A stretch of DNA of 64,000 bases from Albimonas donghaensis (GTDB taxonomy: Bacteria > Pseudomonadota > Alphaproteobacteria > Rhodobacterales > Rhodobacteraceae): NCBI RefSeq assembly GCF_900106695.1, contig NZ_FNMZ01000001.1, positions 1,116,001-1,180,000 of the forward strand, in the 5' to 3' direction. The notes beneath the pieces are model-generated. The model ran no database searches. It worked only from the letters and a program-made list of their open reading frames with translations, and had not been told where the DNA came from. A program made the translations under genes and the position numbers. The first letter of the stretch is position 1. Each line of letters starts with the position of its first letter. Shown here piece after piece: positions 19,712-47,370 of the stretch.

Positions 19712-20566
19712 TCAGATGGCGGTGCGGCGGCTCTCTTCCACGTAGATCTCGCGCAGGCGCGTCGCCACCGGCCCGGGGCTGCCCGCCCCCAGCTTCACGC
19801 CGTCGATCTCCACCACCGGCATCACGAAGGCCGAGGCCGAGGTCACGAAAGCCTCCGCCGCGCCCTTGGCCTCCTCCACCGTGAAGGCCCGCTCCTCGAC
19901 CGAGATCTGGGCCTCCGCCGCATAGCGCATCAGCGACGCCCGGGTGATCCCCGCCAGCAGGTCGTTCGACAGCTGCCGCGTCACCAGAACCCCGTCCTTC
20001 GTCACGATCCAGGCGTTGTTCGACGTGCCCTCGGTGATCTTGCCGTCCTCGACCAGCCAGGCGTCGTCCGCCCCCGCCGCCTTGGCCTGCATCTTGGCCA
20101 TCGACGCATACAGAAGCTGCGTGGTCTTGATGTCCCGCCGATGCCAGCGCAGATCGTCGAGCGAGATCACCTTCGACCCCCGCTGCGCCATCGGGCTCGC
20201 CACGATCGCCTTGGCCTGGGTGAACAGCACCAGCGACGGCGTCATGTCCGCGGTCCAGGCGAAATCGCGATCCGCCGCGCCGCGCGTGACCTGCATGTAG
20301 ACCGCGCCCTCTTCGACCCCGTTGCGGGTCACCAGCTGGCGGTGGATCTCCAGGATCTCCTCCGGGCTCGCCGGCATCGGGATCTCCAGCTCGCCCAGCG
20401 AGCGCGCCAGCCGCGCCTCGTGCCCGGCATAGTCCAGCAGCTTGCCGTCAAGCACCGAGGCGACCTCGTAGACCGCGTCGGCCATCAGGAAGCCCCGGTC
20501 GAAGATCGAGATCTTCGCCTCTTCCTCGGGGAGATATTCGCCGTTCACGTAAACGATGCGGGACAT
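19712..20566 (-). CDS. dat: D-amino-acid transaminase (class IV, fold-type IV PLP enzyme)
   Basis: A 284-residue enzyme expected to exchange amino groups between D-amino acids and 2-oxo acids (D-Ala + 2-oxoglutarate giving pyruvate + D-Glu). Class IV features: VNGEYLPEEEAKISIFDRGF at the N terminus, DDLRWHRRDIKTTQLLYAS with the PLP lysine in DIKTT, and EGTSNNAWIV binding the cofactor phosphate. AGGAG lies 9 nt before the ATG at 20566. It is the last gene of a set with dgcA and dgcN (15 bp after dgcA), which makes D-glutamate its likely product or substrate rather than branched-chain amino acids. Confidence 0.9.
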   Translation of the reverse strand: MSRIVYVNGEYLPEEEAKISIFDRGFLMADAVYEVASVLDGKLLDYAGHEARLARSLGELEIPMPASPEEILEIHRQLVTRNGVEEGAVYMQVTRGAADRDFAWTADMTPSLVLFTQAKAIVASPMAQRGSKVISLDDLRWHRRDIKTTQLLYASMAKMQAKAAGADDAWLVEDGKITEGTSNNAWIVTKDGVLVTRQLSNDLLAGITRASLMRYAAEAQISVEERAFTVEEAKGAAEAFVTSASAFVMPVVEIDGVKLGAGSPGPVATRLREIYVEESRRTAI

Positions 20567-20580
20567 ATCGAAAGACTCCT

Positions 20581-21558
20581 TCAGCCCCACAGGGCCGGTT
20601 CGGACGGATGAACGCCGGCGGCGTCGAATTGCAGCGGCGCGTCGCGGTCCTCGGCCAGCAGCAACGGACCGTCGAGATCCGTCACCGCCCCGCCCTGGGC
20701 GACCAGCAGCGCCGGCGCCATGGCGAGGGACGTCCCCATCATGCAGCCGGTCATCACCTGGTAACCCTCGGCGAGCGCCTGGGCCTTGAGCGCCAGCGCC
20801 TCGGTGAGGCCGCCGGTCTTGTCGAGCTTGATGTTGATCATGTCGTAGCGGCCCTTCAGGGCCGGCAGCGAGGCGCGGTCATGGCAGCTCTCATCCGCGC
20901 AGACCGGCAGCGGACGCGCCACGTCGGCCAGCGCCTCATCCTTGCCCGCCGGCAGCGGCTGCTCGACCATCGCCACGCCCAGGCGCAGCAGGGCGGGGGC
21001 CAGTTCGGCGTATTCCTCCGCCGTCCAGCCCTCGTTCGCGTCGACCACGATGCGCGAGCGCGGCGCGCCCTCCCGCACCGCTTCCAGCCGGGCCATGTCG
21101 CCCTCGCCGCCCAGCTTGATCTTGAGCAGCGGCCGGAACGCGTTCTCCGCCGCCTTGGCGCGCATCGAGGCGGGCTCTCCCAGCGACAGGGTGAAGGCGG
21201 TGATCTCCGGCCCGGGCTTCGCCAGCCCCGCCAGTTCCCAGACCCGCTTGCCGGTGCGCTTGGCCTCCAGGTCCCACAGCGCGCAGTCGACGGCGTTGCG
21301 CGCCGCCCCCGCCGGCATCAGCGCCGACAGCGTCACCCGGTCGAGCCCCGCCATGGGCAGGGCCTCGATCTCCGCGATCACGCCTTCGACGGTCTCATCG
21401 TAACGGGCGTAGGGTGTGCATTCCCCCCAACCGCGATGGGTCCCGTCGGTGATCTCCACCGTCACCACGTTCTGCTCGGTGCGCGAGCCGCGCGAGATGG
21501 TGAACACCTCGCGCAGCCTGAACACGTCGCGTCGGGCCGTCAGGGACAGTCCGCTCAT
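20581..21558 (-). CDS. dgcA: N-acetyl-D-glutamate racemase DgcA (dipeptide-epimerase branch of the enolase superfamily)
   Basis: A 325-residue enolase-superfamily member. It has the 1,1-proton-transfer set of epimerases: KxK in LLKIKLGG near residue 152, metal ligands in DANEGW, VEQPLP and ADES, and the opposing Lys in NIKLDKTGG. By sequence alone it would be called L-Ala-D/L-Glu epimerase; the adjacent dgcN (DUF1611) gene points to the D-glutamate pathway, in which DgcA racemises N-acetyl-D-Glu. The ATG at 21558 is chosen; a GTG at 21567 overlapping the dgcN stop (GTGA) is equally possible. Confidence 0.88.
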   Translation of the reverse strand: MSGLSLTARRDVFRLREVFTISRGSRTEQNVVTVEITDGTHRGWGECTPYARYDETVEGVIAEIEALPMAGLDRVTLSALMPAGAARNAVDCALWDLEAKRTGKRVWELAGLAKPGPEITAFTLSLGEPASMRAKAAENAFRPLLKIKLGGEGDMARLEAVREGAPRSRIVVDANEGWTAEEYAELAPALLRLGVAMVEQPLPAGKDEALADVARPLPVCADESCHDRASLPALKGRYDMINIKLDKTGGLTEALALKAQALAEGYQVMTGCMMGTSLAMAPALLVAQGGAVTDLDGPLLLAEDRDAPLQFDAAGVHPSEPALWG

Positions 21559-21563
21559 GCCGC

Positions 21564-22562
21564 TCACGCCATCATGGCGTCGACGATGGGCCCGACCCCG
21601 GTGCGGAACGGGTCGCAGGTGGGCAGGCCGTATTCGGCCTCGACCGCCTTGAGATAATCGGCGGCCTCCTCGTCGGACATGGCGGCGGTGTTGATCGAGA
21701 TGCCGACCACCTTGGCGCCGGCGTTCACCATCTTCGCCATGGTCAGCGCAAGGTCGGACACCGCGCCGATCGAGGGCACCTGGTAGTCCGGAAGGCCGCG
21801 CATGTGCTCGCGGGTCGGCTCGTGGCAGACCACCAGCGCGTCGGGCTGGCCGCCATGGATCAGCGCCAGCGTCACGCCGGAATAGGAGGCGTGGAACAGG
21901 CTGCCCTGCCCCTCGATCAGGTCCCAGTGATCGTCGGCCGCGTCCGGCGTCAGCCATTCGATCGAGCCCGCCATGAAGTCGGCGATCACCGCGTCCAGCG
22001 GCACGCCGCCGCCGGTGATGAGAATCCCGGTCTGGCCGGTGGCGCGGAAAGTGCAGGGGATCGACCGCTTGGCCATCTCCTTCTCCATCGCGAGCGCCGT
22101 GTACATCTTGCCGACCGAGCAGTCGGTGCCCACGGCCAGGCAGCGCTTGCCCTTGCGCTTCACGCCCGAGGCGATGGGGTATTTCACCGTGGGGATGCGC
22201 ACGTCGTGCAGTTCCCGCCCATGGGCCTTGGCGGCGGCGACCAGCTCGGGCTCGTCGCGGAGCAGGTTGTGCAGGCCGGAGGCGATGTCCATGCCCTTCT
22301 CCAGCGCCTCCTTCAGCACCGCTTTCCAGGTGTCGGAGATCAGACCGCCGCGATTGGCGACGCCGATCACCAGGGTCTTCACCCCGGCGGCCACGGCCTC
22401 GTCGATGGTCATGTCGGTGAGCTTCATGTCCGCCTTGCAGCCCGGCAGGCGAAGCTGGCCCGCGGCCACGGCCGGGTTCCAGTCCTTGATGCCCTGCGCG
22501 ACCTTGGCGGCGAGCGGGTCGGGCGCGTCGCCCAGGAACAGCAGATAGGGTTGGGCGATCAT
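21564..22562 (-). CDS. dgcN: D-glutamate N-acetyltransferase DgcN (DUF1611 family)
   Basis: A 332-residue DUF1611 protein. The C-terminal half has a P-loop-like segment AVGTDCSVGKMYTALAME near residues 140-157, then RATGQTGILITGGGVPLDAV and EGQGSLFHASYSGVTLALIHG, all typical of the family. DgcN is reported to acetylate D-Glu in the D-glutamate catabolic pathway of marine proteobacteria; assignment here rests on family plus the adjoining dgcA. The start MIAQPYLLFLG at 22562 matches the conserved N terminus; a longer frame adds only Pro/Arg sequence. First gene of the trio. Confidence 0.88.
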   Translation of the reverse strand: MIAQPYLLFLGDAPDPLAAKVAQGIKDWNPAVAAGQLRLPGCKADMKLTDMTIDEAVAAGVKTLVIGVANRGGLISDTWKAVLKEALEKGMDIASGLHNLLRDEPELVAAAKAHGRELHDVRIPTVKYPIASGVKRKGKRCLAVGTDCSVGKMYTALAMEKEMAKRSIPCTFRATGQTGILITGGGVPLDAVIADFMAGSIEWLTPDAADDHWDLIEGQGSLFHASYSGVTLALIHGGQPDALVVCHEPTREHMRGLPDYQVPSIGAVSDLALTMAKMVNAGAKVVGISINTAAMSDEEAADYLKAVEAEYGLPTCDPFRTGVGPIVDAMMA

Positions 22563-22762
22563 GGTGCGGCGGCTCCGTCGTGGTCCCGGGACGTCCGGGG
22601 CGGGGTTGAGCAGGGTCCGGAGCGGCATGCGGGAGGCCGGATCCGGTTTCGTCGACAATCCATCACTTTGGACAGGGTGGCGTCAATCGCTGCGAGCGGG
22701 AGAAACCGTCCCGTCGCCCGCGACACGCTAGCACCGGCTCCGCTGGAATTCCAAGTGCGCGC

Positions 22763-22830: not shown

Positions 22831-24729
22831 TCAGGCGGCGCGCACCGCTCCGGCGGCCAGCGCGGAGCGCGGGGCCTCGCCCTCGGGCGCGTCCCCCCGC
22901 CCCTCGCGCAGGGCCGCCAGCGAGGCGTCCAGCCGGCGCAGCGACTCAGGCGCGGGGGCGCGTTCCTCCGGCACGGCGCAGAGCCCGGCGCGGGTCATGA
23001 CCCGGCCCAGCCAGGGCGAGGCGGTGAACACCGCGAAGGGGATCGACAGCGCCAGCCCCGCCAGCACCGGCGCGGCCCAGGGGATCGCGCCGGGCGCGCC
23101 CCAGGCGATCAGCCCGCCGAGGCCGAGCCCCATCAGGCTCTGCGGCCACAATCCGCGGGCCGCGTCCCCCCAGCTCAGCGCATGGGCGTCGCGGCTCTGC
23201 CCGGTCCAGCCCACCGCGCGGCCGAAGGGCAGGCCGGCGAGGAAGATCGTCACCCGCAGCGCCACCGCGGGCGCGAGCAGCACCGAGAACACCGTCTCCG
23301 CCGCCGCCCCCGCCGCGAACCGCGCCCCGCCGCCATAGCGCGCCGCCCCGCCCGGCGTCAGCGCCGTGTCGATCCAGCCCGCGACCTTGGGCACGAGGCT
23401 CATGGCGAACATGGCGACGAACATCACCACCCCGAAAGCCAGATCCACATCCGCGCGCTCCCCGCCGAGGATCTTGGCGGCGCCGGCCAGCGTCATCAGC
23501 ATCCAGGCCGGCGCGCCGAAATACATGGCGATGGCGGCGAAGATCTGGAAACGCGACATCGGCCGCAGCCCGCGCAGGCCCAGCAGGCGCAGATACTGCA
23601 TGTTGCCCTGGCACCAGCGCAGGTCGCGGCGGGTGAATTCCATCAGGGTCGTCGGGTTGTCCTCCCAGGACGGGCCCTCGACCGGGATCACCCGCACCTC
23701 CAGCCCCGCGCGGCGCATCAGCGCCGCCTCCACCTGGTCGTGGGAGAGGATGTCCCCCCCCAGCGGCGGCCGCCCCGGCAGCCGCGGCAGTCCGCAGCGG
23801 GCGCGGAAGGGGGCCGTGCGCACCAGCGCGTTGTGCCCCCAATAGGGCCCGCAATCCCCGTGCCACCAGGCGGCGCCCATGGTGAAACTGCGCATCCCGT
23901 GGCGCATCCCGAACTGGAACAGCCGCGCGAAACCGGACGCCGAGGGCGCGCCGACCACCAGGCTCTGCAGGATCCCGATGCGCGGATGCGCCTGCATGAT
24001 CCGGGTCATGCGCAGGATCGCCTCGCCCGCCATCAGGCTGTCGGAATCGAGCGGCAGGAACAGCGCGTAGTCCCGCCCGCGCCGACGCACGAACTCGCGG
24101 ATATTGCCGGCCTTCCAGCCGCGGTTGTCGGTCCTGCGGCGATACTCCGCGCGCCCCAGCAGCGGCCGCCACCGCGCGAGCGCGGCTTCCTCCGCCGCCA
24201 CCGCCCCGGGGTCCTGGCTGTCCGACAGGATGTGCAGGTCATAGGCCGCGCCCTGCCCCGTGGCGTCCAGCGACCGCCGCACCTCCGCCAGCCGCGCCAG
24301 CGCCCGGTCGGCGTCCTCGTGGCGCAGGCACAGCAGCACGGCGGTGCGCGCGACGATGGGCGCGTCGCTGTCGCCCGCCGCCAGATGCGGGGCGGCGCGG
24401 CCCAGCCCGTCGCGGGTCCCGTGCAGCAGCCACAGGCCCAGGATCGCGTTCCACGCGCCCATGATCGTCCAGGGAGCGCCGATGGCGATGCAGGCCAGGA
24501 TCACCGCGTCCGAGGCCGAGATCCCCGCCGGCGACAGCATCCGCCACGCCCCCGCCAGCACCAGCGCCAGACCCGCCAGGTTCAGGCCCGCCGCCAGCCA
24601 TCGCCGCCGGCGCAGGACCGCGGCCGGTTGCAGGCCCGCGGGCGTGCGCCCGCCGGCGTCAGGGGCGCCGGGCGCGTCGTCGGCCGGGGTCAGGGTCGGG
24701 ATCGGGGAGGGGTCGACGGGAAGGCTCAT
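22831..24729 (-). CDS. opgH: Glucans biosynthesis glucosyltransferase OpgH (MdoH)
   Basis: A 632-residue inner-membrane enzyme that polymerises and exports the glucan backbone of osmoregulated periplasmic glucans from UDP-glucose. After a disordered Pro-rich N terminus come two membrane helices and a family 2 glucosyltransferase domain: DLHILSDSQDPGAV, RRTDNRGWKAGNIREF, FLPLDSDSLM (DxD), ILSHDQVEAALMRRAG and RRDLRWCQGNMQYL (Q/RxxRW, processive-type). Several C-terminal membrane segments follow. Shorter than the roughly 850 residues of E. coli MdoH, as usual in alphaproteobacteria. opgG is not adjacent; opgC lies 5.5 kb away. Confidence 0.92.
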   Translation of the reverse strand: MSLPVDPSPIPTLTPADDAPGAPDAGGRTPAGLQPAAVLRRRRWLAAGLNLAGLALVLAGAWRMLSPAGISASDAVILACIAIGAPWTIMGAWNAILGLWLLHGTRDGLGRAAPHLAAGDSDAPIVARTAVLLCLRHEDADRALARLAEVRRSLDATGQGAAYDLHILSDSQDPGAVAAEEAALARWRPLLGRAEYRRRTDNRGWKAGNIREFVRRRGRDYALFLPLDSDSLMAGEAILRMTRIMQAHPRIGILQSLVVGAPSASGFARLFQFGMRHGMRSFTMGAAWWHGDCGPYWGHNALVRTAPFRARCGLPRLPGRPPLGGDILSHDQVEAALMRRAGLEVRVIPVEGPSWEDNPTTLMEFTRRDLRWCQGNMQYLRLLGLRGLRPMSRFQIFAAIAMYFGAPAWMLMTLAGAAKILGGERADVDLAFGVVMFVAMFAMSLVPKVAGWIDTALTPGGAARYGGGARFAAGAAAETVFSVLLAPAVALRVTIFLAGLPFGRAVGWTGQSRDAHALSWGDAARGLWPQSLMGLGLGGLIAWGAPGAIPWAAPVLAGLALSIPFAVFTASPWLGRVMTRAGLCAVPEERAPAPESLRRLDASLAALREGRGDAPEGEAPRSALAAGAVRAA

Positions 24730-24946: not shown

Positions 24947-25975
24947 ATGACCCAGCCCGCCCGCGCGCTCCACTACATCGCCCCCGGCCGCGCCGAGATC
25001 CGCGAGACCGCGCTCGGCGAGGGCGAGTGCCTGCTGCGCATGACCCGCTCCGCCCTCAGCCGGGGCACCGAGCGGCTGGTCTTCGAAGGCCGCGTCCCGG
25101 TCTCCGAGCACGCCCGCATGCGCGCGCCCTTCCAGACCGGCGATTTCCCCTTCCCGGTCAAATACGGCTACTGCGCCGTGGCCGAGGTGATCGAGGGCCC
25201 GCCCGCCCTCCAGGGCCGCATGGTCTTCGCCCTGCACCCGCACCAGACGCGCTTCCGCCTGCCCGCCGCCGCGCTCACCCCCCTGCCCGAGGGGCTGTCG
25301 CCGCGGCTCGGCGCGCTCGCCGCCAACATGGAGACGGCGCTCAACGTGATCTGGGACGCCGCCGTCGCCCCCGGCGACCGGGTGGCGGTGATCGGGGCCG
25401 GGCTGGTCGGCTGCCTCGTGGCCTGGCTCGCGGGGCGCATTCCGGGAACCCAGGTGACGCTCAGCGACCCCATCCCCGCCCGCGCCGCGACCGCCGCCGC
25501 GCTGGGGGTGGGCTTCGCCCCGCCCGAGGCCTTGTCCATGGCGCCGGAGGCGGATTTCGCCCCGGAATCCTACGCGGACTTCGCCCCGGACTTCGATGTG
25601 GCGATCCACGCCTCCGCCTCCGAGGCCGGGCTGACCGCGGCGCTGAACCTGTTGGGCGTCGAGGGGCGGCTGGTCGAGGCGTCCTGGTTCGGCGACCTCG
25701 CCCCCGCGGTTCCGCTGGGCGGCGCGTTTCACGCCCGGCGGCTGACGCTGGTCTCGTCGCAGGTCGGGCGCATCCCCGCGGCGCGCGCCGCGCGCTGGGA
25801 CCATGCGCGCCGGATGCAGGCGGCCCTGCGGCTGCTGGCCGAGGATCCGGACCTGGAGGCGACGCTGATCGGCCCCCCCGAGGCCGACGCGCCCTTCGAA
25901 TCCCTGCCCGCCCGCCTTCCGGCCCTGCTGGCCCGCGACGCCCCCGGAATCGCCACGCTGGTCGCCTATGACTGA
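24947..25975 (+). CDS. Medium-chain dehydrogenase/reductase lacking zinc ligands
   Basis: A 342-residue MDR protein. The N-terminal GroES-like domain carries SALSRGTERLVFEGRVP, the SxGTE variant found in BchC-like and related MDR proteins, in place of the catalytic-zinc cysteine; no four-cysteine structural zinc loop is present. The Rossmann domain has VIGAGLVGCLVAWLAG near residues 148-163. A nucleotide-dependent oxidoreductase on an unknown substrate is the safest reading. It is divergent from opgH and upstream of the PTPS-like/GT4/methyltransferase operon on the same strand, but a terminator lies between. Confidence 0.8.
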   Translation: MTQPARALHYIAPGRAEIRETALGEGECLLRMTRSALSRGTERLVFEGRVPVSEHARMRAPFQTGDFPFPVKYGYCAVAEVIEGPPALQGRMVFALHPHQTRFRLPAAALTPLPEGLSPRLGALAANMETALNVIWDAAVAPGDRVAVIGAGLVGCLVAWLAGRIPGTQVTLSDPIPARAATAAALGVGFAPPEALSMAPEADFAPESYADFAPDFDVAIHASASEAGLTAALNLLGVEGRLVEASWFGDLAPAVPLGGAFHARRLTLVSSQVGRIPAARAARWDHARRMQAALRLLAEDPDLEATLIGPPEADAPFESLPARLPALLARDAPGIATLVAYD

Positions 25976-26090
25976 GCCGCGCCCCCGCATGGGCGACCCG
26001 GCCGACCCGGCCCGTCTTGCCGATGGATGAAACGAGAAACCATCAGGCAGAACAACATGTTCCACTTTGAACCGGCGCATTCCGCACCGC

Positions 26091-26115
26091 GATCCGCCCG
26101 AAGCGGATCATTTTT
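26091..26115 (+). terminator. Rho-independent terminator after the MDR dehydrogenase gene
   Basis: 7-bp perfect stem gatccgc / gcggatc, 5-nt loop, then attttt. It begins 116 bp after the dehydrogenase stop and about 110 bp before the next gene, implying that the downstream three-gene operon has its own promoter. Confidence 0.75.
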
Positions 26116-26227
26116 CCGTGACTCCGATGACGCTTCGGTCGCCTTGACCTGAGCCTCTCCCCGGACAAGCTGGTCAACGAACACGAGAATTTCCAGCGCG
26201 TGCGCGTGCCATCGGAGGGCGTCCCCT

Positions 26228-26620
26228 ATGTATGCGGTCGAAGTGCGGGACCATGTGATGCTGGCTCATTCCCTGCCCGGCGAGGTCTTCGGCCCGGCCC
26301 AGGGCCTGCACGGCGCGACCTATGTGGTCGACGTGGCGTTCTTCCGCGAGGAACTGGGGCCGGAGCGCATCGTGGCCGATATCGGCCGGGCCCATGACGT
26401 GCTGAAGGCGGCGCTGGCCCCGATCAACTACGCCAATCTCGACGCCGTGTTTCCCGGCGAGCTGACCACCACCGAATGGCTCGCCCGTCACATCTTCGAC
26501 CGCCTGGCCGAAGCGGCCCGCGGGGGCGAACTGGGAACCGGCTCGGAGGGGATCGAGCGCATCCGCGTCACCCTGAACGAGAGCCATATCGCGAAGGCCT
26601 GGTTCGAAGGCGCGGTGTGA
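26228..26620 (+). CDS. 6-pyruvoyl-tetrahydropterin synthase / QueD-fold protein lacking the catalytic residues
   Basis: A 130-residue T-fold protein. Aligned by eye with E. coli QueD, the usual Cys-x3-His-Gly-His segment reads APAQ-like sequence then LHGATY: the catalytic Cys is Ala (residue 24) and the last zinc His is Ala (residue 30), with H14 and H28 kept. The catalytic Asp-His pair in LDHxxLN reads INYANLD. The pterin-anchoring Glu near the C terminus (LNES) is kept. It should still bind a pterin-like ring but not do normal PTPS or QueD chemistry. GGAGGG precedes the ATG; the stop overlaps the next start (GTGA). Confidence 0.8.
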   Translation: MYAVEVRDHVMLAHSLPGEVFGPAQGLHGATYVVDVAFFREELGPERIVADIGRAHDVLKAALAPINYANLDAVFPGELTTTEWLARHIFDRLAEAARGGELGTGSEGIERIRVTLNESHIAKAWFEGAV

Positions 26621-27696
26621 CGATCGCCGCCGCCTTCGCCATCCCGGGCGCGCTCGACACGCCCACGGGCGGCTACGAATACGACCGGAAACTGTTGGAG
26701 GCCGCGCCCGCCGTCGGCCTCGCGCTCTCCCATCTGCCGTTGTCGGGCGGGTTCCCGCGCCCGACCCGGGCCGAGGCCGAAGCCGCGATCGCCGCCATGG
26801 CCGCCGCCCCCGGCCCGGTGCTGGTCGACGGGCTGGCGCTCGGCGCCCTGCCGGCCGAGGCGATCCCCGAAGCGCTCGGCGCGCGGCTGATCGCGCTCTG
26901 CCATCACCCGCTGGGGCTGGAGACGGGGCTGTCGGCGGAGGCGTCCGCACGGATGCTCGCCGCCGAAGCCGCGGCGCTGGCCCGTTGCGCCGGGGTCGTG
27001 ACCACCTCGCGCACCACGGCGGAAACCCTGCGGACCCGCCTCGGCGTCCCCGCCGCGCGGATCGCGGTGGCGCCGCCGGGGCTGACCCCCGCGCCGCGCG
27101 CGCCGCGGCGCCGCGACCCGGCGCCGATGATCCTCGGCGTCGGCACGATCTCGGCGCGCAAGGACTGGGGGACGCTGGTCGCCGCGCTCTCGCGCCTCGC
27201 GGACCGGGACTGGACCTGCGCCATCGCCGGCGACGACGCCCGCGACCCCGACGCCGCCCAGGCCCTGCGCGCCGCCATCGAGACCGCGGGCCTCGCCCCC
27301 CGCATCCGCCTGACCGGCGCGCTGGGGCGCGCCGCGCTCGACGCGCTCTATCTCGACGCCGACCTTTTCTGCCTGCCCTCCCGCTACGAGGGCTACGGGA
27401 TGGTGATCGTCGAGGCGATGATGCGCGGCCTGCCCGTGGTGGCCTGCAACGCGGGCGCGGTCCCCGAGGCCGCGGGCGGCGCCGCCCGGCTCGTCCCTCC
27501 CGGCGATCCGGAGGCCATGGCCAAGGCGCTGGCCGTCGTGCTCGACGACGCGGAGGAGGCCGACCGCATGGCCGCGGCGTCCCGCGCGCACGCCCTGTCC
27601 CTGCCGGGATGGGAGGACGCGGCGCGGATCGTGGCGGGTCAGCTCGCCGGACTTCGCGCGGAACCGCTCCGCGACATGCGGGAGCATTCGGCATGA
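26617..27696 (+). CDS. Family 4 glycosyltransferase
   Basis: A 359-residue GT-B enzyme starting at a GTG that overlaps the PTPS-like stop, indicating coupled translation. The acceptor domain is N-terminal (PTGGYEYDRKLLEAAP). The donor domain has ILGVGTISARKDWGTLVAAL, then PSRYEGYGMVIVEAMMRG, the E-x7-E retaining-GT4 motif, and NAGAVPEAAGGAARLV. There is no signal or membrane segment, so it acts on a soluble acceptor in the cytoplasm. Its place between a pterin-binding fold and a methyltransferase suggests a small-molecule acceptor. Confidence 0.88.
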   Translation: MTIAAAFAIPGALDTPTGGYEYDRKLLEAAPAVGLALSHLPLSGGFPRPTRAEAEAAIAAMAAAPGPVLVDGLALGALPAEAIPEALGARLIALCHHPLGLETGLSAEASARMLAAEAAALARCAGVVTTSRTTAETLRTRLGVPAARIAVAPPGLTPAPRAPRRRDPAPMILGVGTISARKDWGTLVAALSRLADRDWTCAIAGDDARDPDAAQALRAAIETAGLAPRIRLTGALGRAALDALYLDADLFCLPSRYEGYGMVIVEAMMRGLPVVACNAGAVPEAAGGAARLVPPGDPEAMAKALAVVLDDAEEADRMAAASRAHALSLPGWEDAARIVAGQLAGLRAEPLRDMREHSA

Positions 27697-28475
27697 GCTT
27701 TTCCAGCGACTGGCTCTCCTTGCGCGAATCCGCCGACGACGCCGCGCGCGACCGCGGCCTTCTGGCCGCTCTGGCCGACTGGGCGAGGGAAGTCCCCGGC
27801 CCGCTGGAGGCGCTGGACCTGGGCTGCGGAACCGGCGCGGGCTATCGCGCGGTCTCGCCGCATCTGCCCAACGCCCGCTGGACCCTGATCGACCGCGATC
27901 CCGGCCTGCTGGCCGAGGCCGCCCGGCGCACCGGAGAGCGCACGCTCGCCCTCGATCTCGCGCCCGCGCCGGGCGGCCCGGCCGGGCTGCTGACCGGCGA
28001 GGCGCGGGGGTTGATCTCCGCCTCCGCGCTGTTCGACCTGGTGTCCGGCGACTGGCTCGACGGCTTCGTCGCCGCCGCGCCCCCCGGCGTCGCGATCTAC
28101 GCCGCGCTCACCTATGACGGCCGCGAGCGCTGGTCCCCCACCTCCGCGCACGAGCCCCGGGCGCTCGCCGCCTTTCACGCCCACCAGCGGGGCGACAAGG
28201 GCTTCGGTCCGTCGCTGGGGCCGCGGGCGGGGGCGATGCTGGCCTCGCGGCTCTCGGCGCGGGGATGGCGGGTGAAGGTCGCGCCCTCGGACTGGCGGCT
28301 GGAGGCGCCGCGCGACGCGGCCCTGATCACCGCGCTGGCCGCCGGCGCGGCGGAGGCGGTGGCCGAAACCGCCGCCCTGCCCCCCGCCGCGCATTTCGCC
28401 TGGGCGAGCGCCCGGCGGAAGGCCCAGACGGTGGAGATCGGCCACATGGACCTGCTCGCCCTGCCCCCGGACTAG
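27693..28475 (+). CDS. Class I SAM-dependent methyltransferase
   Basis: A 260-residue enzyme whose ATG overlaps the glycosyltransferase stop (ATGA). SAM motif I is LDLGCGTGAGY near residues 41-51, with an acidic post-motif (WTLIDRDPGLLAEA) and a motif IV-like DLVSGDWLDGF. The C-terminal half (PTSAHEPRALAAFHAHQRGD onward) has no assigned function. Soluble and full length. The substrate is unknown; context suggests the glycosylated product of this three-gene operon. Confidence 0.85.
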   Translation: MSFSSDWLSLRESADDAARDRGLLAALADWAREVPGPLEALDLGCGTGAGYRAVSPHLPNARWTLIDRDPGLLAEAARRTGERTLALDLAPAPGGPAGLLTGEARGLISASALFDLVSGDWLDGFVAAAPPGVAIYAALTYDGRERWSPTSAHEPRALAAFHAHQRGDKGFGPSLGPRAGAMLASRLSARGWRVKVAPSDWRLEAPRDAALITALAAGAAEAVAETAALPPAAHFAWASARRKAQTVEIGHMDLLALPPD

Positions 28476-28530
28476 ACGGCGGTCCGGGCGGCGGCGCAGG
28501 CGCCGGTTCAGGCGTCGGGCCGGGCCGGGC

Positions 28531-29091
28531 TCAGAACATCCGGCCCAGCACCCCGTCCCGGTCCACCAGCCCGTGCTTGAGCGCCGCCGCGATATGGGCG
28601 ACGGCCAGGAACCCGATCAGCAGCCCCAGCGGCCCATGCACGCCGCCCAGCAGGAACTCCGAGACCGCGCGGTCGGGCGCCACCGGCAGCGCCGCGTCGA
28701 ACAGGCCCCAGACCGGGACCGGCGCCGGGTAGAGGCTGACCCCGATCCAGCCGACCACCGGCGTCGCGATCAGCAGCACGTAAAGCGCCGCATGCACGAG
28801 AGAGGAGACCAGCCTCTCCGCCGGGCTCAGCGGCCGCGCATAGGCGGGCGCCGCCCAGACCGCGCGCGCCGCCACCCGCAGAATCATCAGCGCCAGCACG
28901 GTGATCCCCAGCGACTTGTGCAGGTCGTAGATCAGGTTGAACCCGCCCTCGCCCAGCACCGCGTTCACCGCCTCGATCTTCCCGGCCTCGTAGCCCTCGA
29001 TCAGCAGGCCGATGGGGACCAGCAGCAGCACGCAGAGCGCGACGAGCCAGTGCAGCGCCTTGCGCGGAACGGGATAGCTGGCGGGCTTCAT
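28531..29091 (-). CDS. Cytochrome b561 (CybB family)
   Basis: A 186-residue inner-membrane di-heme b-type cytochrome with four hydrophobic helices. It starts with the family block YPVPRKALHWLVALCVLLL (heme-ligand His 14), has NLIYDLHKSLGITVLAL with a second ligand His, and LGGVHGPLGLLIGFLAVAHI with the later histidines. Such proteins pass electrons between the quinone pool and periplasmic acceptors such as superoxide. It is convergent with the methyltransferase, 55 bp apart. Confidence 0.9.
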   Translation of the reverse strand: MKPASYPVPRKALHWLVALCVLLLVPIGLLIEGYEAGKIEAVNAVLGEGGFNLIYDLHKSLGITVLALMILRVAARAVWAAPAYARPLSPAERLVSSLVHAALYVLLIATPVVGWIGVSLYPAPVPVWGLFDAALPVAPDRAVSEFLLGGVHGPLGLLIGFLAVAHIAAALKHGLVDRDGVLGRMF

Positions 29092-29281
29092 GGGCGAGGG
29101 TCCCTCTGCTGGCCGCGCGGCGCGGCGCGGGTCTGGCGCGGCCGCGAACCGGCGCGGCCGCCCCGACCATCGCGCCTTCCGCGCCGCGGGTCAAAAGCCG
29201 CGTGACGCGCGGCGGCATGGGGGTATGCGCCCGGCGCGGGCCGCGGGGTTCGCCGGTCCGCGGAAAACGCGCCAGCGCGCC

Positions 29282-29980
29282 TCAGTCCCGCTGCCAGGAC
29301 CTGCGCAGATCGCAGGTGAACAGCACGTCCCCGTCCTCGAACGCATGGACCCGCGTGACCGGGCGCAACGCCTCGTCGAGACTGTCGACGGGGGCGAGCC
29401 GGAACCCCTCCTTCCCCGATCCGAGGATCATCGGCGCGACCAGCACATGCAGCAGGTCCACCGCGCCGGCGTCCAGAAAACGCGCCAGCGTGTCGGCCCC
29501 GCCCTCCACCAGGATCCGCCGCAGGCCAAGCGCATGCAGCGCCGCCACGATGGCGTCGGGGGCGAAGCCGCCCGCCTCCGGCTCCAGCGGAACGGCGATG
29601 GCCGGGGGCGGCGGGGTCAGGTCGGGACGGGTGATCACATAGACCGGCGCGGCGCCGTCGCTCAGCCCGCCCCAGTCGGCGGGCAGCCGCCCGTTGGGGT
29701 CGATCACCACCCGGGCCGGATGCTTGCCGTCGACCCGGCGCACGGTCAGCCGCGGATCGTCCGCCACCACGGTCGACACCCCCACCAGCACCGCGTCCAC
29801 ATGCGCGCGCAGTCGATGCAGGTGGTCCAGCGCCTGGTAGCCGTTGATGTATTTGGAGGCCCCGGTGACGGTGGCGATCCGCCCGTCCAGCGTCTGGCCG
29901 AGCTGGGCCACGACGACGGAGCGGGTCTCGCCCGCTTCGGGCATCAGGGGAAGAAGAGCTTCGGCGGGGGCGTAGTTCAT
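29282..29980 (-). CDS. RibD C-terminal-domain / dihydrofolate-reductase-like reductase
   Basis: A 232-residue protein made only of the RibD reductase domain, without the deaminase half. Family features are VVAQLGQTLDGRIATVTGAS at the N terminus, VDAVLVGVSTVVADDPRLTV, and NADPH-site VEGGADTLARFLDAGAVDLL near residues 160-180. Stand-alone members reduce riboflavin or pterin precursors. Its location 0.8 kb from the PTPS-like operon, though on the other strand, is why it is considered with that group. Start at 29980 fits the family. Confidence 0.87.
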   Translation of the reverse strand: MNYAPAEALLPLMPEAGETRSVVVAQLGQTLDGRIATVTGASKYINGYQALDHLHRLRAHVDAVLVGVSTVVADDPRLTVRRVDGKHPARVVIDPNGRLPADWGGLSDGAAPVYVITRPDLTPPPPAIAVPLEPEAGGFAPDAIVAALHALGLRRILVEGGADTLARFLDAGAVDLLHVLVAPMILGSGKEGFRLAPVDSLDEALRPVTRVHAFEDGDVLFTCDLRRSWQRD

Positions 29981-30278: not shown

Positions 30279-31886
30279 TCACTCGGCCGGCTGCGGCGCG
30301 GAACGGCGCGCCGCCCCGCGCCGCGGCGCGGCCTCCGCCGGCGCTGGCGCCGGGGTCGGGGCGGGGGCCGGCGCCGGGCGCCGCCAGGGCTGCGACTTGA
30401 ACCAGCCCACCGCATAGGCCACCGCGATCAGCGCCGCGAACCCCGCGAGGTTGAACAGCCCCGTCGCCCACAGCCCCCGCCCGGTCAGGTCCAGACCCCA
30501 GCCGATGACCTGCGCGAGGAACATCGAGCTGAGGAACACCGCCAGCGACTGCGTGCCGACCTTGCGCACCACCGGCACGAAGCCGGCCCAGCCCGGCCCC
30601 GCGATCCAGGCCCGCGCCCCGGCCCCGATCGCCGTCCAGACCAGCGGCGCCAGCGCGCAGAGATGCAGGACCATCACCAGGCTCTGCCGCTCCCACGGGA
30701 CGAACAGGTCGACGCCGAGGACCGACCGCGCGCCCTCGCCCAGCACGCCGGTCAGCCAGGCGTCGAGCGCCGGGGCCAGGGCGCGGATCTCGTCCACCCA
30801 GGCCCAGGGCGCGGTGATCAGCGCGACGCCGGCGCAGATCGCCAGCGCGGCGCCCGAGGCGGCCGCCGGCAGGCGCAGCGGCTGCGTCAGCCGCGCCCCG
30901 CCCGGCCCCGCGAGCGACCAGAACACATAGGCCAGCGCCAGGAAATGCAGCCAGCGGAACAGCCCCAGCTCGGTCTTGCGCCACAGGACCTGCGTGGCCT
31001 CGCGCCCGGCCGCGATCGCGTCCTGAAGCCACCAGCCGTCGGGCAGCCACAGCCCGTCATGGATGCGGAACCACGCGAAGGGGACCGAGATCAGCAGCAC
31101 CGCCACCGCCGCCCGAAACAGCGCGCGCGAAACCGGCGGCGCCGGGACCCAGCCCATGCCGAAGGCGAAGCCGGTGAAGAACACCAGCTGCCAGCCGAAG
31201 GGGTTGAAGAACCACGGGATCTCCGTCGCCCAGGGGCGCGAGGGCAGGTCCAGCAGGTTGAACTGCGCCGCCAGCCAGATCGCCGCCACCAGCCCCAGCG
31301 CGCCGCCCCGGCCGGCCAGCCGATACGCCCCCATGACCAGCGGAACCATGGCCAGGATCACCAGATACATGGGCAGGATGTCGAAGAAATTCGGAACCCA
31401 GCGCAGGCTCAGCAACCCCAGCAGCGCCGGCCCGGTATCCTCGAACAGCGGGACCACCGGCACGCGCGCGATATAGAGCTTGTCCGGCGCCCCCCAGCCG
31501 CTCGCGTCGATGGCGTAAAGCAGGGCGCAGACCGCGAGCACCAGCCCCACATGCGCCCAGTAGACCTGCCAGACCCGATGCGCGATGCGCGCGGTTCCCA
31601 TCGGCCAGCCATGGTCCCGGAACGCCGCCCCGAAGGCCAGCGAGGACGCGAGGCCCGAGCAGAACACGAAGATCTCGGTGGCGTCGGAAAACCCGAAGCG
31701 CGCCGGGATCCAAAGCGCCCAGCTGTCCAGCGGCACATGCGCGAGCAGGATGATGAACATCGCCAGCCCGCGGAAGAAATCCAGCCGCATGTCGCGGGGC
31801 TTCTTCGCGGGGGGCGCGGGGGCCGCGGGCGAGGACCCAGACAAGGACGGGGGCGCCGCGGGCGCGTTTCGGGATGGGTGCGTCAT
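30279..31886 (-). CDS. opgC: OpgC-type acyltransferase (osmoregulated periplasmic glucan modification)
   Basis: A 535-residue inner-membrane protein of the OpgC/acyltransferase-3 group, which adds succinyl groups to periplasmic glucans. It begins with a Pro/Ala linker, then the signature RLDFFRGLAMFIILLAHVP, followed by about ten membrane segments, including LYAIDASGWGAPD and FNPFGWQLVFFTGFAFGMGW. The C-terminal 50 residues are a cytoplasmic Pro/Ala/Arg tail. The start MTHPS at 31886 is preferred over one 63 bp upstream, though both precede only linker sequence. The partner opgH is 5.5 kb away. Confidence 0.88.
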   Translation of the reverse strand: MTHPSRNAPAAPPSLSGSSPAAPAPPAKKPRDMRLDFFRGLAMFIILLAHVPLDSWALWIPARFGFSDATEIFVFCSGLASSLAFGAAFRDHGWPMGTARIAHRVWQVYWAHVGLVLAVCALLYAIDASGWGAPDKLYIARVPVVPLFEDTGPALLGLLSLRWVPNFFDILPMYLVILAMVPLVMGAYRLAGRGGALGLVAAIWLAAQFNLLDLPSRPWATEIPWFFNPFGWQLVFFTGFAFGMGWVPAPPVSRALFRAAVAVLLISVPFAWFRIHDGLWLPDGWWLQDAIAAGREATQVLWRKTELGLFRWLHFLALAYVFWSLAGPGGARLTQPLRLPAAASGAALAICAGVALITAPWAWVDEIRALAPALDAWLTGVLGEGARSVLGVDLFVPWERQSLVMVLHLCALAPLVWTAIGAGARAWIAGPGWAGFVPVVRKVGTQSLAVFLSSMFLAQVIGWGLDLTGRGLWATGLFNLAGFAALIAVAYAVGWFKSQPWRRPAPAPAPTPAPAPAEAAPRRGAARRSAPQPAE

Positions 31887-31996
31887 CGTCTCGGGCGGTC
31901 TCCCCTCGGTCGTCCCGTCGGACGACCCGCTTGTTCTCGGCGGCGCCATCCATGCGCCGAGCGCATGGATTCGGCGAAATCAATCCACTCAGCGCA

Positions 31997-33373: not shown

Positions 33374-34502
33374 CGGAGGCTCCGGAGAGGGCGGCTGGCT
33401 TTGGGTCGGGGCGCCGAGGGGGCGCCTCGCTCCTACTGATGGATAGGCGGGATTTCGCCTCCGGGGACGGCTTGTTTCGCCGTTTCACCCAATGGTGAGA
33501 CTTCGGGAGGGAGAGGGGTGGCCGGCGCGAGCAGGACGTGAGGGCGCCGTGAGGTCGCTGTCAGGCCGCCGTCAGGCCGGGGCGCCGCGTCGACGGTCGC
33601 GCGGCTGGCCCGCGGGCGCCCGCGGCGCGCTGAGACGGAGTCGCGGGCGGCAAGGCAGCCTGGATCGGCGGCCGGGATCGCGGGGGGGCGGGCGAGTGCG
33701 ACGGGCGCGCGTCCCCGCGGGATGCCCCCCCCGCGAGGCGCCGGCCCCTGCGGCGAGGGCGCGGGAGGGAAACCCCGCGGGAATTTCGCATGACACCAGG
33801 GCTTCGCGGCCGCGCCGCCCGCGCATCTCCCGTCAGCCCCATCGCGACATCCGCCCGAGCGGGCCCGGCCCGCCGCCGCGCGCAGGGACGAGGCCGCGGG
33901 CGCCTGCGCAGGTCGGGCGCGCAGGCGCCACGGCCCTCGAAGGTCGCCGGGGTCGGCGCGGCGACGACGGGGGCGATGGCGGGACCGAACGCGGGCTGGA
34001 CCTCGCGTCGGACCTGCGCCGGACATTCGCGGTCCCCATCGTCGCCGACGACCGTCCCTGCAGAAAGGGCGGGAGCGCGATCGCGGGCGCATCCGGGCGA
34101 CCGCTATCGCGGGGTCCGAGCTTGCGACGTCAGCCCTTTCGGAGCCCGCCCTCGCCGAAGCGGCGGCGCCGCCCGCGGGCCTGCGCCACGCGCCGCGGGC
34201 GCGCCCGTGACGCTGGCGCGACCTGGACGCGGCGCCGCCCCCCGCGTGACGCGGGAGATGCGGGCGGGGCGGGCGGAGGCTGTGGGGCGGCGGACGCCTC
34301 CCCGCCCGTCACCAGCTGTTGAGCCGGCGTCAACGCGGGCGGGCTGGCGCGCGGCGCGATGGGGCCGCATGGTTTCAGGCGATCGCGCTTCGTTCCTTCC
34401 CAGGCTGTGAGCCAGACCGATGTTCCCGATGTCCCGCCTTTCCCTCCGCCTCGTTTCGCCCCGCCTCGTCTCCCTCCGCATCCTTCCGCGCCCGGCGCGT
34501 CG
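33374..34502. other. 1.1-kb stretch without a convincing gene
   Basis: The largest gap in the window. Near the TPR gene the composition is less extreme, and an inverted repeat gtttcacc-caat-ggtgagac (7 of 8 pairs, 33482-33501) may be an operator for it. From 33540 to 34320 only Arg/Pro/Ala-rich frames are seen on both strands, none with a ribosome site and family motif. The last 150 bp, in frame with the YeeE-type gene, allow a longer start (GTG 34407). Confidence 0.55.
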
Positions 34503-35759
34503 ATGACCCCCGGCGCAGCCGCGGAGCCCGCAGCCGACGGCGCGGCTGACGGCGCGGCCGCCTCCACCGGGCGGGCCGCCCAGCCCGGCGTGATCGTCGC
34601 GGCGCTGGTCCTGACCGCAGCGCTGCTGGGGACGGCGGTCCGGGCGGGGGGCCTCGGGATGACGGCGCCGGTCCTGCTGGGAGCCGCGGCGGGCTGGGCG
34701 CTGCATGGATCGGGGTTCGGCTTCGCCTCCGCCTGGCGGGCCCTGGCGCGGGACCGGCGGGGCGAGGGCGTGCGGGCCCAGATCCTGCTCATCGGCCTGA
34801 TCAGCGCCGTCGCCTTCCCCCTGATCGCCTGGGGCGAGGCGCTGGGGCTGCCGGCCCGCGGCGTGGTGCTGCCGATGGGGGTCGCCTCGGCCATCGGCGC
34901 GGCGATGTTCGGAGCCGGCATGCAGCTCGGCGGCGGCTGCGCGTCGGGGACGCTCTACACGGTGGGCGGGGGCTCGGCGAAGATGGGCGTGACGCTGGCG
35001 TTCTTCGTGGCGGGCTCGGTGCTCGCCACCGCGCATTGGGAGGTCTGGGCCGCCCTGCCCGCCACCCGCGCCGGCTGGTCGCTGGTCGGCGGCTTGGGGC
35101 CGTTGCCGGCGATCGCGGTCATGGGCGCGGCGCTGGCCGGGGCCTGGGCGCTGACCCGCGCGGTGGAGCGGGGCGGCGGCGCCCCCCGCCCGACGCCCCC
35201 CGAGACGCCGCCCGCCGCGCTCCCCGCCGCGCTCCCCGCCGCGCCCCCTTTCACCCGCCGCCTGCGATGGCGCCCCGTGACCGGCGCGCTGGCGCTGGCG
35301 GCGGTGGGGATCGGGTGTTTCGCGCTGCTCGGCCGCCCCTGGGGCGTGACCTGGGGCTTCGCCCTGTGGGGCGCGAAGGCGGCGCAGGGGCTGGGAATTC
35401 CGGCCGAGACATGGACCTACTGGCAGGGCTGGCGCGGCGCGGCGCTGGCGCGGCCGGCGCTGGCCGACGCGACCTCCGTGATGAATCTCGGCATCGTGGC
35501 GGGGGCGCTGTTCTCCGCCGGGCTGGCCGGGCGCTTCGCCCCGACCTGGCGCATCCCGCCCCGCGCGCTGGCCGGCGCCGCGGCGGGAGGGCTGCTGATG
35601 GGCTACGGCGCGCGGCTCGCCTACGGCTGCAATATCGGCGCGTTTCTCGGGGGACTGACCTCGGGTTCGCTGCACGGGCTGTGGTGGCTGGCCTGGGCCG
35701 TGGCGGGGACCTGGGCCGGGCTGCGCCTGCGCCGGGCGCTGAGGCTCGACCCCGCATGA
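34503..35759 (+). CDS. YeeE/YedE-family transporter (thiosulfate/sulfur-compound uptake type)
   Basis: A 418-residue inner-membrane protein with about ten hydrophobic helices in two repeats. Each repeat has the family cysteine motif: GGGCASGTLYTVGGGS (Cys about 146) and YGCNIGAFLGGLTSGS (Cys about 376). In TsuA-type members these cysteines relay thiosulfate through the pore. The substrate here is inferred to be a small sulfur compound. Residues 1-30 are a Pro/Ala leader; the start is uncertain (ATG 34503 or GTG 34407) because no strong ribosome site exists. A DUF302 gene follows by 28 bp. Confidence 0.85.
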   Translation: MTPGAAAEPAADGAADGAAASTGRAAQPGVIVAALVLTAALLGTAVRAGGLGMTAPVLLGAAAGWALHGSGFGFASAWRALARDRRGEGVRAQILLIGLISAVAFPLIAWGEALGLPARGVVLPMGVASAIGAAMFGAGMQLGGGCASGTLYTVGGGSAKMGVTLAFFVAGSVLATAHWEVWAALPATRAGWSLVGGLGPLPAIAVMGAALAGAWALTRAVERGGGAPRPTPPETPPAALPAALPAAPPFTRRLRWRPVTGALALAAVGIGCFALLGRPWGVTWGFALWGAKAAQGLGIPAETWTYWQGWRGAALARPALADATSVMNLGIVAGALFSAGLAGRFAPTWRIPPRALAGAAAGGLLMGYGARLAYGCNIGAFLGGLTSGSLHGLWWLAWAVAGTWAGLRLRRALRLDPA

Positions 35760-46906: not shown

Positions 46907-46988
46907 TCCGCGCCGGGCGGCCCGCCCCCGAGCCAACCCCTGAACCAACCCCCGCGACATGTTCGCGGTTTTCCCCCGCCGCGCCCCT

Positions 46989-47016
46989 TTTCATGGGCGG
47001 GTCGGGGGGCTATATA
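46989..47016 (+). promoter_or_regulatory. Promoter of the tmRNA gene
   Basis: TTTCAT at 46989-46994, 16 bp spacer, TATATA at 47011-47016, about 18 bp before the RNA's 5' end. The A/T-rich -10 box stands out in this GC-rich DNA. Confidence 0.6.
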
Positions 47017-47033
47017 AGCTCTGTCTCCCATCC

Positions 47034-47370
47034 GGGGGACTATGGCGATAAACGCGCACGTAATAAGCGGCTCGGACCCGGGGGCGGTACCCGGCGGCTC
47101 CACCAATATCCCTGCCATCGGTCATTGACGATGGGGTTCGGGGAAGCGAGGGGCCGAAACAGGATCGACGGACGTCTAAAGGTGTTAGCTTTCGCTCGGC
47201 AGGATGCCACCGTTACCGGCTCAAATTGTACAGTTGCCAATGACAACCGTGCTCCGGTGGCCGTCGCTGCGTAACGCAGCTTAAACCACCGAACTTCAAG
47301 TCCCTGGGCTTAGCCGTTCAGGGCGGGGCTCGCAGGCGCCTGGCAACAGAAGCCTGCACTAATCCCCCCC
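47034..47370 (+). ncRNA. ssrA: Transfer-messenger RNA, circularly permuted two-piece alphaproteobacterial form
   Basis: tmRNA rescues stalled ribosomes and adds a degradation tag. The acceptor part comes first and ends CGGCTCC-A-CCA (47095-47105); the coding part begins GGGGCCG (47150-47156). These pair as a 7-bp acceptor stem with a G-U at the third pair, the alanine identity mark. The tag frame at 47236-47274 reads ANDNRAPVAVAA then stop. The order acceptor piece, intervening loop, coding piece is the permuted form processed into two RNAs. The outer ends (gggggac and tccccccc) pair. Ends are approximate. Confidence 0.93.

Follow-up and report, generated by a model that had tools for sequence, protein, structure and literature searches.

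A conserved gene cassette around a PTPS-IV T-fold protein is a candidate pathway for a modified, envelope-directed pterin

We analysed a stretch of 64,000 nucleotides from Albimonas donghaensis (contig NZ_FNMZ01000001.1 of assembly GCF_900106695.1, positions 1,116,001 to 1,180,000; hereafter the window, meaning this whole stretch), in which a gene for a degenerate PTPS-like protein lies in a cassette with reductase, dehydrogenase, tailoring and membrane genes. The cassette may encode an orphan pathway for a modified pterin, a reading to which we give a probability of about 0.5: the ring would be drawn from GTP through GTP cyclohydrolase II (GCHII), reduced, passed through a T-fold step, methylated, glycosylated and sent to the envelope. 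A first-pass annotation, made from the sequence alone, had proposed that a pterin-like molecule is glycosylated and methylated here. This part fits the data below, whereas the entry is likelier to be GCHII and a deaminase-less reductase than the QueD/PTPS substrate it had pointed to. The GCHII entry and the envelope destination are additions to that proposal. The genes of the cassette in the window are:

22831–24720, minus strand: MdoH/OpgH-like membrane glycosyltransferase of family GT2, divergent from the operon (Pfam Glyco_trans_2_3, 6.3e-11)
24947–25975, plus strand: zinc-less dehydrogenase of the medium-chain dehydrogenase/reductase (MDR) family (ADH_zinc_N only below the Pfam cut-off; nearest NCBIfam model BchC)
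26228–26620, plus strand: PTPS-IV T-fold protein of 130 aa, as judged from Pfam PF01242 (PTPS, 8.9e-16), 3d7j, a structure model and conservation
26617–27696, plus strand: GT4 glycosyltransferase with a GTG start (PF00534, Glycos_transf_1, 1.1e-29)
27693–28475, plus strand: class I S-adenosylmethionine-dependent methyltransferase (PF13649, Methyltransf_25, 3.9e-06)
28531–29091, minus strand: cytochrome b561 (PF01292, Ni_hydr_CYTB, 2e-23)
29282–29980, minus strand: stand-alone RibD_C reductase (PF01872, 2.4e-37) without a deaminase domain

The PTPS-like protein carries much of the argument. Its AlphaFold model (pLDDT 92.9) has the T-fold, and a sequence search at E ≤1 found a single solved relative, 3d7j (SCO6650 of Streptomyces coelicolor; 1.1e-35), which is also the top Foldseek match of the model (TM 0.95, 51% identity), followed by PTPS and QueD. 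Residue positions were mapped on E. coli QueD, and conservation was counted over 88 family sequences taken at a cut-off of 100 bits, by which a Microbacterium sequence (90 bits) was excluded. The two zinc-type histidines His14 and His28 and the pterin-anchoring Glu118 are found in 88/88 sequences, and so are Gln25, Asp51, Asp72, Thr82 and Glu83. The position of the third zinc histidine is Ala30 in 88/88, the catalytic Cys and the catalytic His are replaced by Ala24 and Tyr68 in 87/88 each, and the catalytic Asp is Asn67 in the window protein and variable across the set. This pattern of kept and lost residues is the one described at first pass, and the structural comparison revealed no intact catalytic residues elsewhere. 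Because the altered residues are nearly invariant in the 88 sequences, the active site appears to have been rebuilt for another task rather than to belong to a decaying enzyme.

On the strength of its FGPAQ signature (F21, G22 and Q25 in 88/88 sequences; P23 and A24 in 87/88), the protein is assigned to the PTPS-IV subgroup of COG0720. The neighbourhood trait of PTPS-IV, PF00925 together with PF01872, is seen as well, with RibD_C in the window and both domains in relative loci. SCO6650 shows the same fold, the same FGPAQ motif and the same replaced residues; the window protein differs from it in sitting in a proteobacterial cassette with an MdoH-like GT2 and cytochrome b561. Zinc and PTPS activity were reportedly missing in the study of SCO6650. 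QueD and PTPS have in common with the window protein the T-fold, two zinc His positions and the Glu anchor, which we take to hold the 2-amino-4-oxo ring in PTPS, but their catalytic Cys, Asp-His pair and third zinc His are missing from it. An identity as QueD (PTPS-I) or PTPS-II was rejected on these replacements, and a QueD role in queuosine synthesis on the finding of 0 matches to PF06508 (QueC) in the organism's own genome, which is 98% complete (control positive in 12/14). PTPS-III of folate synthesis was rejected too: AQGLHGAT stands where the ExxHGH motif, as given in the passage of PMC5041015 on it, is expected. The label "6-carboxytetrahydropterin synthase", carried by 14 of the 15 plasmid matches that bear a gene name, is contradicted by these residues.

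To see how widely the neighbourhood is shared, relative loci were drawn from a scan of genome contigs; they are the best 80 of at least 580 matched stretches and lean to close relatives. Gene presence was scored by phmmer at E 1e-5 plus bit cut-offs of our own choice, and the 58-locus counts refer to loci flanked by 8 kb on either side, the 22/80 that are short on one side being left out. The shared neighbourhood extends well past the genus, and the cassette was found in alpha-, beta- and gammaproteobacteria and in actinomycetes. Its core in relatives is a four-gene operon, MDR-PTPS-GT4-methyltransferase. Within 8 kb, MDR and methyltransferase genes are each found in 56 of the 58 loci, GT4 in 54, MdoH-like genes in 40 and RibD_C in 37; cytochrome b561 (28), GCHII (23), CDP-alcohol phosphatidyltransferase (10) and creatininase-family genes (3) are rarer. 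Across loci L017–L104, MDR and PTPS are adjacent, ≤400 nt apart, in 75 cases, as are PTPS and GT4 in 79, always on the same strand. PTPS is patchy in the window's family (13/149 genomes). We opened 12 of 20 plasmid records, of which 10 carry the MDR-PTPS pair with more cassette genes and 2 a solitary PTPS; cassettes occur on plasmids of Streptomyces fungicidicus, Microbacterium, Thiodictyon, Methylosinus, Neorhizobium, a Rhodobacteraceae strain, Agrobacterium, Palleronia and Allorhizobium, and an Arthrobacter plasmid has MDR, PTPS and GT4 only. The Methylosinus plasmid, that of M. trichosporium OB3b, has the gene set MdoH-MDR-PTPS-GT4-methyltransferase-RibD. Solitary PTPS-IV genes (Streptomyces plasmids, L098, L103, near 12001) lie near cupin, MBL-fold and BTAD-regulator genes. 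Mirror-tree correlations of 0.24 to 0.65 had no control and were not used.

In the window, the GT4 start overlaps the PTPS stop (GTGA) and the methyltransferase start overlaps the GT4 gene (ATGA), and the coordinates, gene names and domains of this operon, as well as the RibD-like reductase and cytochrome b561 beside it, are as first described. The annotation had treated the MDR gene as a neighbour of a three-gene operon. In relatives MDR is the operon's first gene. The 252 nt (25976–26227) that separate MDR from PTPS in the window are an outlier, the median distance in 74 loci being 16 nt (≤40 nt in 60/74). A terminator-like hairpin at 26091–26109 in the gap may be due to chance (1 found against a shuffle mean of 1.5). 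The MDR protein was rightly taken to be zinc-less: among 81 sequences the cysteines of the window protein are kept in 4 (C28), 26 (C76) and 11 (C156), so that none is conserved, and the conserved residues are instead those of SRGTE (each 80/81), His99 (80/81) and His262 (81/81). BchC is its best NCBIfam model, but an identity as BchC was rejected, with TIGR01202 scoring 30.7 bits (1.6e-07) against a cut-off of 291. The nearest solved structure of the GT4 protein is 7qsg, a D-inositol 3-phosphate glycosyltransferase, with PimA-type enzymes lower in the list. The methyltransferase model (pLDDT 95.6) matches 3mgg best (Foldseek 1.2e-13), and no hint of its substrate was found among 821 fold-search matches at E ≤0.001.

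Entry through GCHII is suggested by gene order in relatives. Paracoccus indicus (L096) and a Palleronia plasmid both have consecutive GCHII, MDR, PTPS, methyltransferase and RibD_C genes on a single strand, and in Agrobacterium pAt and an Allorhizobium plasmid GCHII lies between the CDP-alcohol transferase and MDR. GCHII probably belongs to the cassette, and the plasmid copies are unlikely to be those of riboflavin synthesis. The window's own genome has two PF00925 proteins, both on other contigs than the cassette. At the position of E. coli Tyr105, 30 of the 32 GCHII copies in loci have Tyr, one has Met and one Leu (L045), and three further plasmid copies have Tyr. The Met copy is that of S. 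fungicidicus, next to a creatininase-family gene; with Met at this position the enzyme presumably stops at the formylated product. Met-type GCHII with a creatininase was rejected as a general rule, as 4/32 loci have a creatininase and 3 of these have Tyr (L042, L055, L065). The creatininase-family protein BrbF deformylates a formylated pyrimidine intermediate in riboflavin synthesis, according to the part of PMC9478397 that describes it; this is the kind of deformylation proposed for the S. fungicidicus protein, but BrbF is a riboflavin enzyme of Sinorhizobium, and MftE is the model to which the S. fungicidicus protein comes closest, below the cut-off. In cassette GCHII proteins (L025 13658–14797, L113 5729–6877 and similar ones), EGRGNG or EGRGTG is found for EGRGIG before the conserved KxRAY, and such proteins are perhaps a separate GCHII subfamily.

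The reductase may act on the GCHII product. The best solved match of RibD_C is 6p8c, which is named a 2,5-diamino-6-ribosylamino-4(3H)-pyrimidinone 5'-phosphate reductase, an enzyme with a non-deaminated substrate. With NCBIfam it scores 94 bits for TIGR01508 (cut-off 186) and higher, 117, for ribD_Cterm, and the other RibD_C copy of the genome is a full-length bifunctional RibD. A deaminase-less reductase would keep the 2-amino-4-oxo ring, as in pterins.

Most of the cassettes also carry one of two membrane modules. Among the 80 loci, 55 have an MdoH-like GT2, 12 a CDP-alcohol phosphatidyltransferase, none both and 13 neither (P = 8.6e-08, Fisher's exact test, not corrected for kinship). Of the 12 transferase loci, 6 encode a flippase-like protein and 9 a sulfatase-like one, neither of which is found in any of the 55 MdoH-like loci. 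The CDP-alcohol transferase resembles PgsA, below the cut-off; of the sulfatase-like proteins, that of L113 has no Pfam match and that of L064 one just under the cut-off. These results suggest that both designs hand a product to the membrane or envelope. In NCBIfam the window's GT2 matches MdoH at 6.8e-244, under the model's cut-off, and two other MdoH models above theirs; its start codon is uncertain, the frame being open to 24948. It is 38% identical to the genome's other OpgH-like copy, which adjoins an OpgG gene. A role of the window's GT2 as the OpgH/MdoH of osmoregulated periplasmic glucan (OPG) synthesis was rejected, as it has no adjoining OpgG partner and both OpgG genes lie elsewhere, although NCBIfam still names it MdoH.

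From the observed co-localisation, operon structure, families, fold and residue conservation we infer the following chemistry. GCHII would open GTP to give 2,5-diamino-6-ribosylamino-pyrimidinone 5'-phosphate; in the window's organism this would be done by a Tyr-type copy elsewhere in the genome, and in the one Streptomyces cluster a Met-type GCHII would leave the formyl group, to be removed by the adjacent creatininase-family protein. RibD_C would then reduce the ribosyl chain and, lacking a deaminase domain, leave the 2-amino-4-oxo half-pterin ring in place. The zinc-less MDR may oxidise a side-chain alcohol, and PTPS-IV may hold the ring by Glu118 and close or rearrange it without zinc. The methyltransferase and, in most loci, GT4 would decorate the ring, after which the MdoH-like synthase/exporter, or the CDP-alcohol phosphatidyltransferase with or without the flippase, would attach the product to the envelope or move it there; cytochrome b561 may exchange electrons with it. 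A bolder version, which we consider unlikely, is that a pterin is made without GTP cyclohydrolase I: RibD_C would reduce the GCHII product at C1', MDR would oxidise it at C2' and the zinc-less T-fold protein would close the ring, the two redox steps together amounting to the net Amadori step of GTP cyclohydrolase I. The methylated and glycosylated product would be tied to the envelope by either of the exclusive modules (lipid or glycan) and serve as a membrane redox cofactor attended by b561.

Several points weigh against the GCHII-derived pterin pathway. The order and chemistry proposed from the MDR step onward are guesswork. GCHII is near the cassette in 31/80 loci and was not found in 49/80 (35/58 of those with full flanks), the window included; at least two PF00925 proteins are present in 26/28 cassette genomes, a count that includes RibBA-type proteins, and some of the GCHII genes beside a cassette may be their genome's copy for riboflavin synthesis. 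The pairing of Met with a creatininase rests on one actinomycete locus. RibD_C was not found within 8 kb in 21/58 loci, and had no match in S. fungicidicus L097 (12 kb) or in L102 and L112 (10 kb). Next after 6p8c among the solved matches of RibD_C stands 2azn, whose entry names it a putative reductase acting on the deaminated substrate, ahead of bacterial RibD proteins; we take 2azn to be the Methanocaldococcus enzyme, which presumably uses the non-deaminated form. By the chosen cut-offs, GT4 is missing in 4/58, MDR in 2/58 and methyltransferase in 2/58 loci, and on two Streptomyces plasmids PTPS-IV stands without a cassette.

It is possible, though we rate it well below an even chance, that the cassette starts from a GTP cyclohydrolase I product (dihydroneopterin or monapterin, by way of FolE1 or FolE2) and yields a cyanopterin-like glycoside, with GCHII and RibD_C serving riboflavin or another branch. 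FolE1 or FolE2 is found in 39/41 PTPS-IV genomes examined. A FolE source has to be kept in view because, in the window's family, FolE1 is present in 8/13 genomes with PTPS-IV against 3/39 examined without it (the lowest-numbered of the 136 PTPS-less genomes in the family), a difference that kinship may explain. Known pterin glycosides start from GTP cyclohydrolase I pterins, and cyanopterin also carries a methyl group; we know of none with GCHII, RibD_C or a membrane module. Pterin glycosides occur in cyanobacteria, as a passage of PMC13259868 relates, and a pteridine glycosyltransferase of Chlorobium is described in part of PMC5683033; the likeness to the proposed product lies in a pterin carrying a sugar. 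On the other side, searches of the window's genome (98% complete) and of that of L045 found no FolE of either type, and GTP cyclohydrolase I is annotated in none of the plasmid gene tables, which are incomplete, where GCHII and RibD recur. In the two FolE-less genomes the gene may lie in unassembled sequence. The missing FolE would also agree with a bypass in which the cassette turns the GCHII product into the pterin of folate; in Chlamydia, RibA and TrpF are said to bypass FolE. This idea was dropped as highly improbable after a comparison of 80 genomes: FolE1 or FolE2 is present in 39/41 genomes with the cassette and 37/39 without, the two exceptions among the latter lack both types without having a cassette, and a glycosyltransferase and a methyltransferase have no place in folate synthesis.

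The presence of two riboflavin enzymes, GCHII and a RibD-type reductase, and the linkage of a PTPS-IV cluster of 561 sequences to PF00925 and PF01872, reported in a section of PMC5445326, would fit a modified flavin or lumazine made from intermediates of the riboflavin pathway. We regard this as improbable: RibD_C has no deaminase domain, and no RibB, RibH or RibE is annotated beside the opened plasmid cassettes, the 80 genome loci not having been searched for them. Moreover, the Glu that in PTPS presumably holds the 2-amino-4-oxo ring is kept in all 88 sequences. Improbable, too, is the idea of a T-fold protein that acts as a pterin-binding sensor or allosteric subunit of an envelope-glycan (OPG-like) locus with no pterin product. 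The lost catalytic residues, the frequent MdoH-like GT2 (55/80 loci) and an OpgC gene nearby in the window are what such a locus might show; OpgC, however, is near the cassette in just 2/80 loci, the two OpgG genes and the second OpgH-like gene are elsewhere in the genome, and RibD_C, GCHII and the MdoH-less loci would be unexplained.

Part of this picture is already known: a degenerate PTPS has been crystallised as SCO6650, the subgroup has been named PTPS-IV, and its RibD_C/PF00925 neighbourhood was published in 2017 (PMC5445326, in the section on the 561-sequence cluster). That section calls PF00925 GTP cyclohydrolase I/FolE2 and makes no mention, for this cluster, of an MDR, a GT4, a methyltransferase or a membrane module. 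The inference drawn there on PTPS-IV needs correction, because PF00925 is GTP_cyclohydro2 in Pfam's own naming. PTPS-IV has also been assigned to F420 on unpublished grounds, as stated in a passage of PMC5041015; the clusters we saw hold no pointer to F420. With the exception of this assignment, no product or function for the cassette was found in open-licence PubMed Central papers as far as their available passages go, nor was a description of the full cassette and its exclusive membrane modules or a paper on a pterin lipid or envelope pterin found in that literature. The PTPS-IV family is large, with at least 580 matched stretches in several bacterial classes (two search patterns were used, so one gene may count twice), and a crystal structure that stood as an orphan becomes, with this set of an entry enzyme, a reductase, a dehydrogenase, a T-fold protein and tailoring enzymes, a testable pathway. 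If an envelope-bound pterin is indeed made, it would represent a novel class of membrane cofactor, perhaps with a second route to the pterin ring.

A search of phage records gave no match. Elsewhere in the window, Rfam gave solely tmRNA models, which mark a permuted alphaproteobacterial tmRNA gene at 46984–47360 on the plus strand (RF01849, 287 bits). A three-gene run at 19712–22658 on the minus strand encodes a class IV aminotransferase, an enolase-superfamily (MR_MLE) enzyme and a DUF1611 protein, which we take to be a D-amino-acid (DgcN/DgcA-like) set. The cassette is adjoined by a gene for an OpgC-type protein (30279–31949, minus strand), and a sulphur-transport (PF04143) protein is encoded at 34359–35759 on the plus strand.

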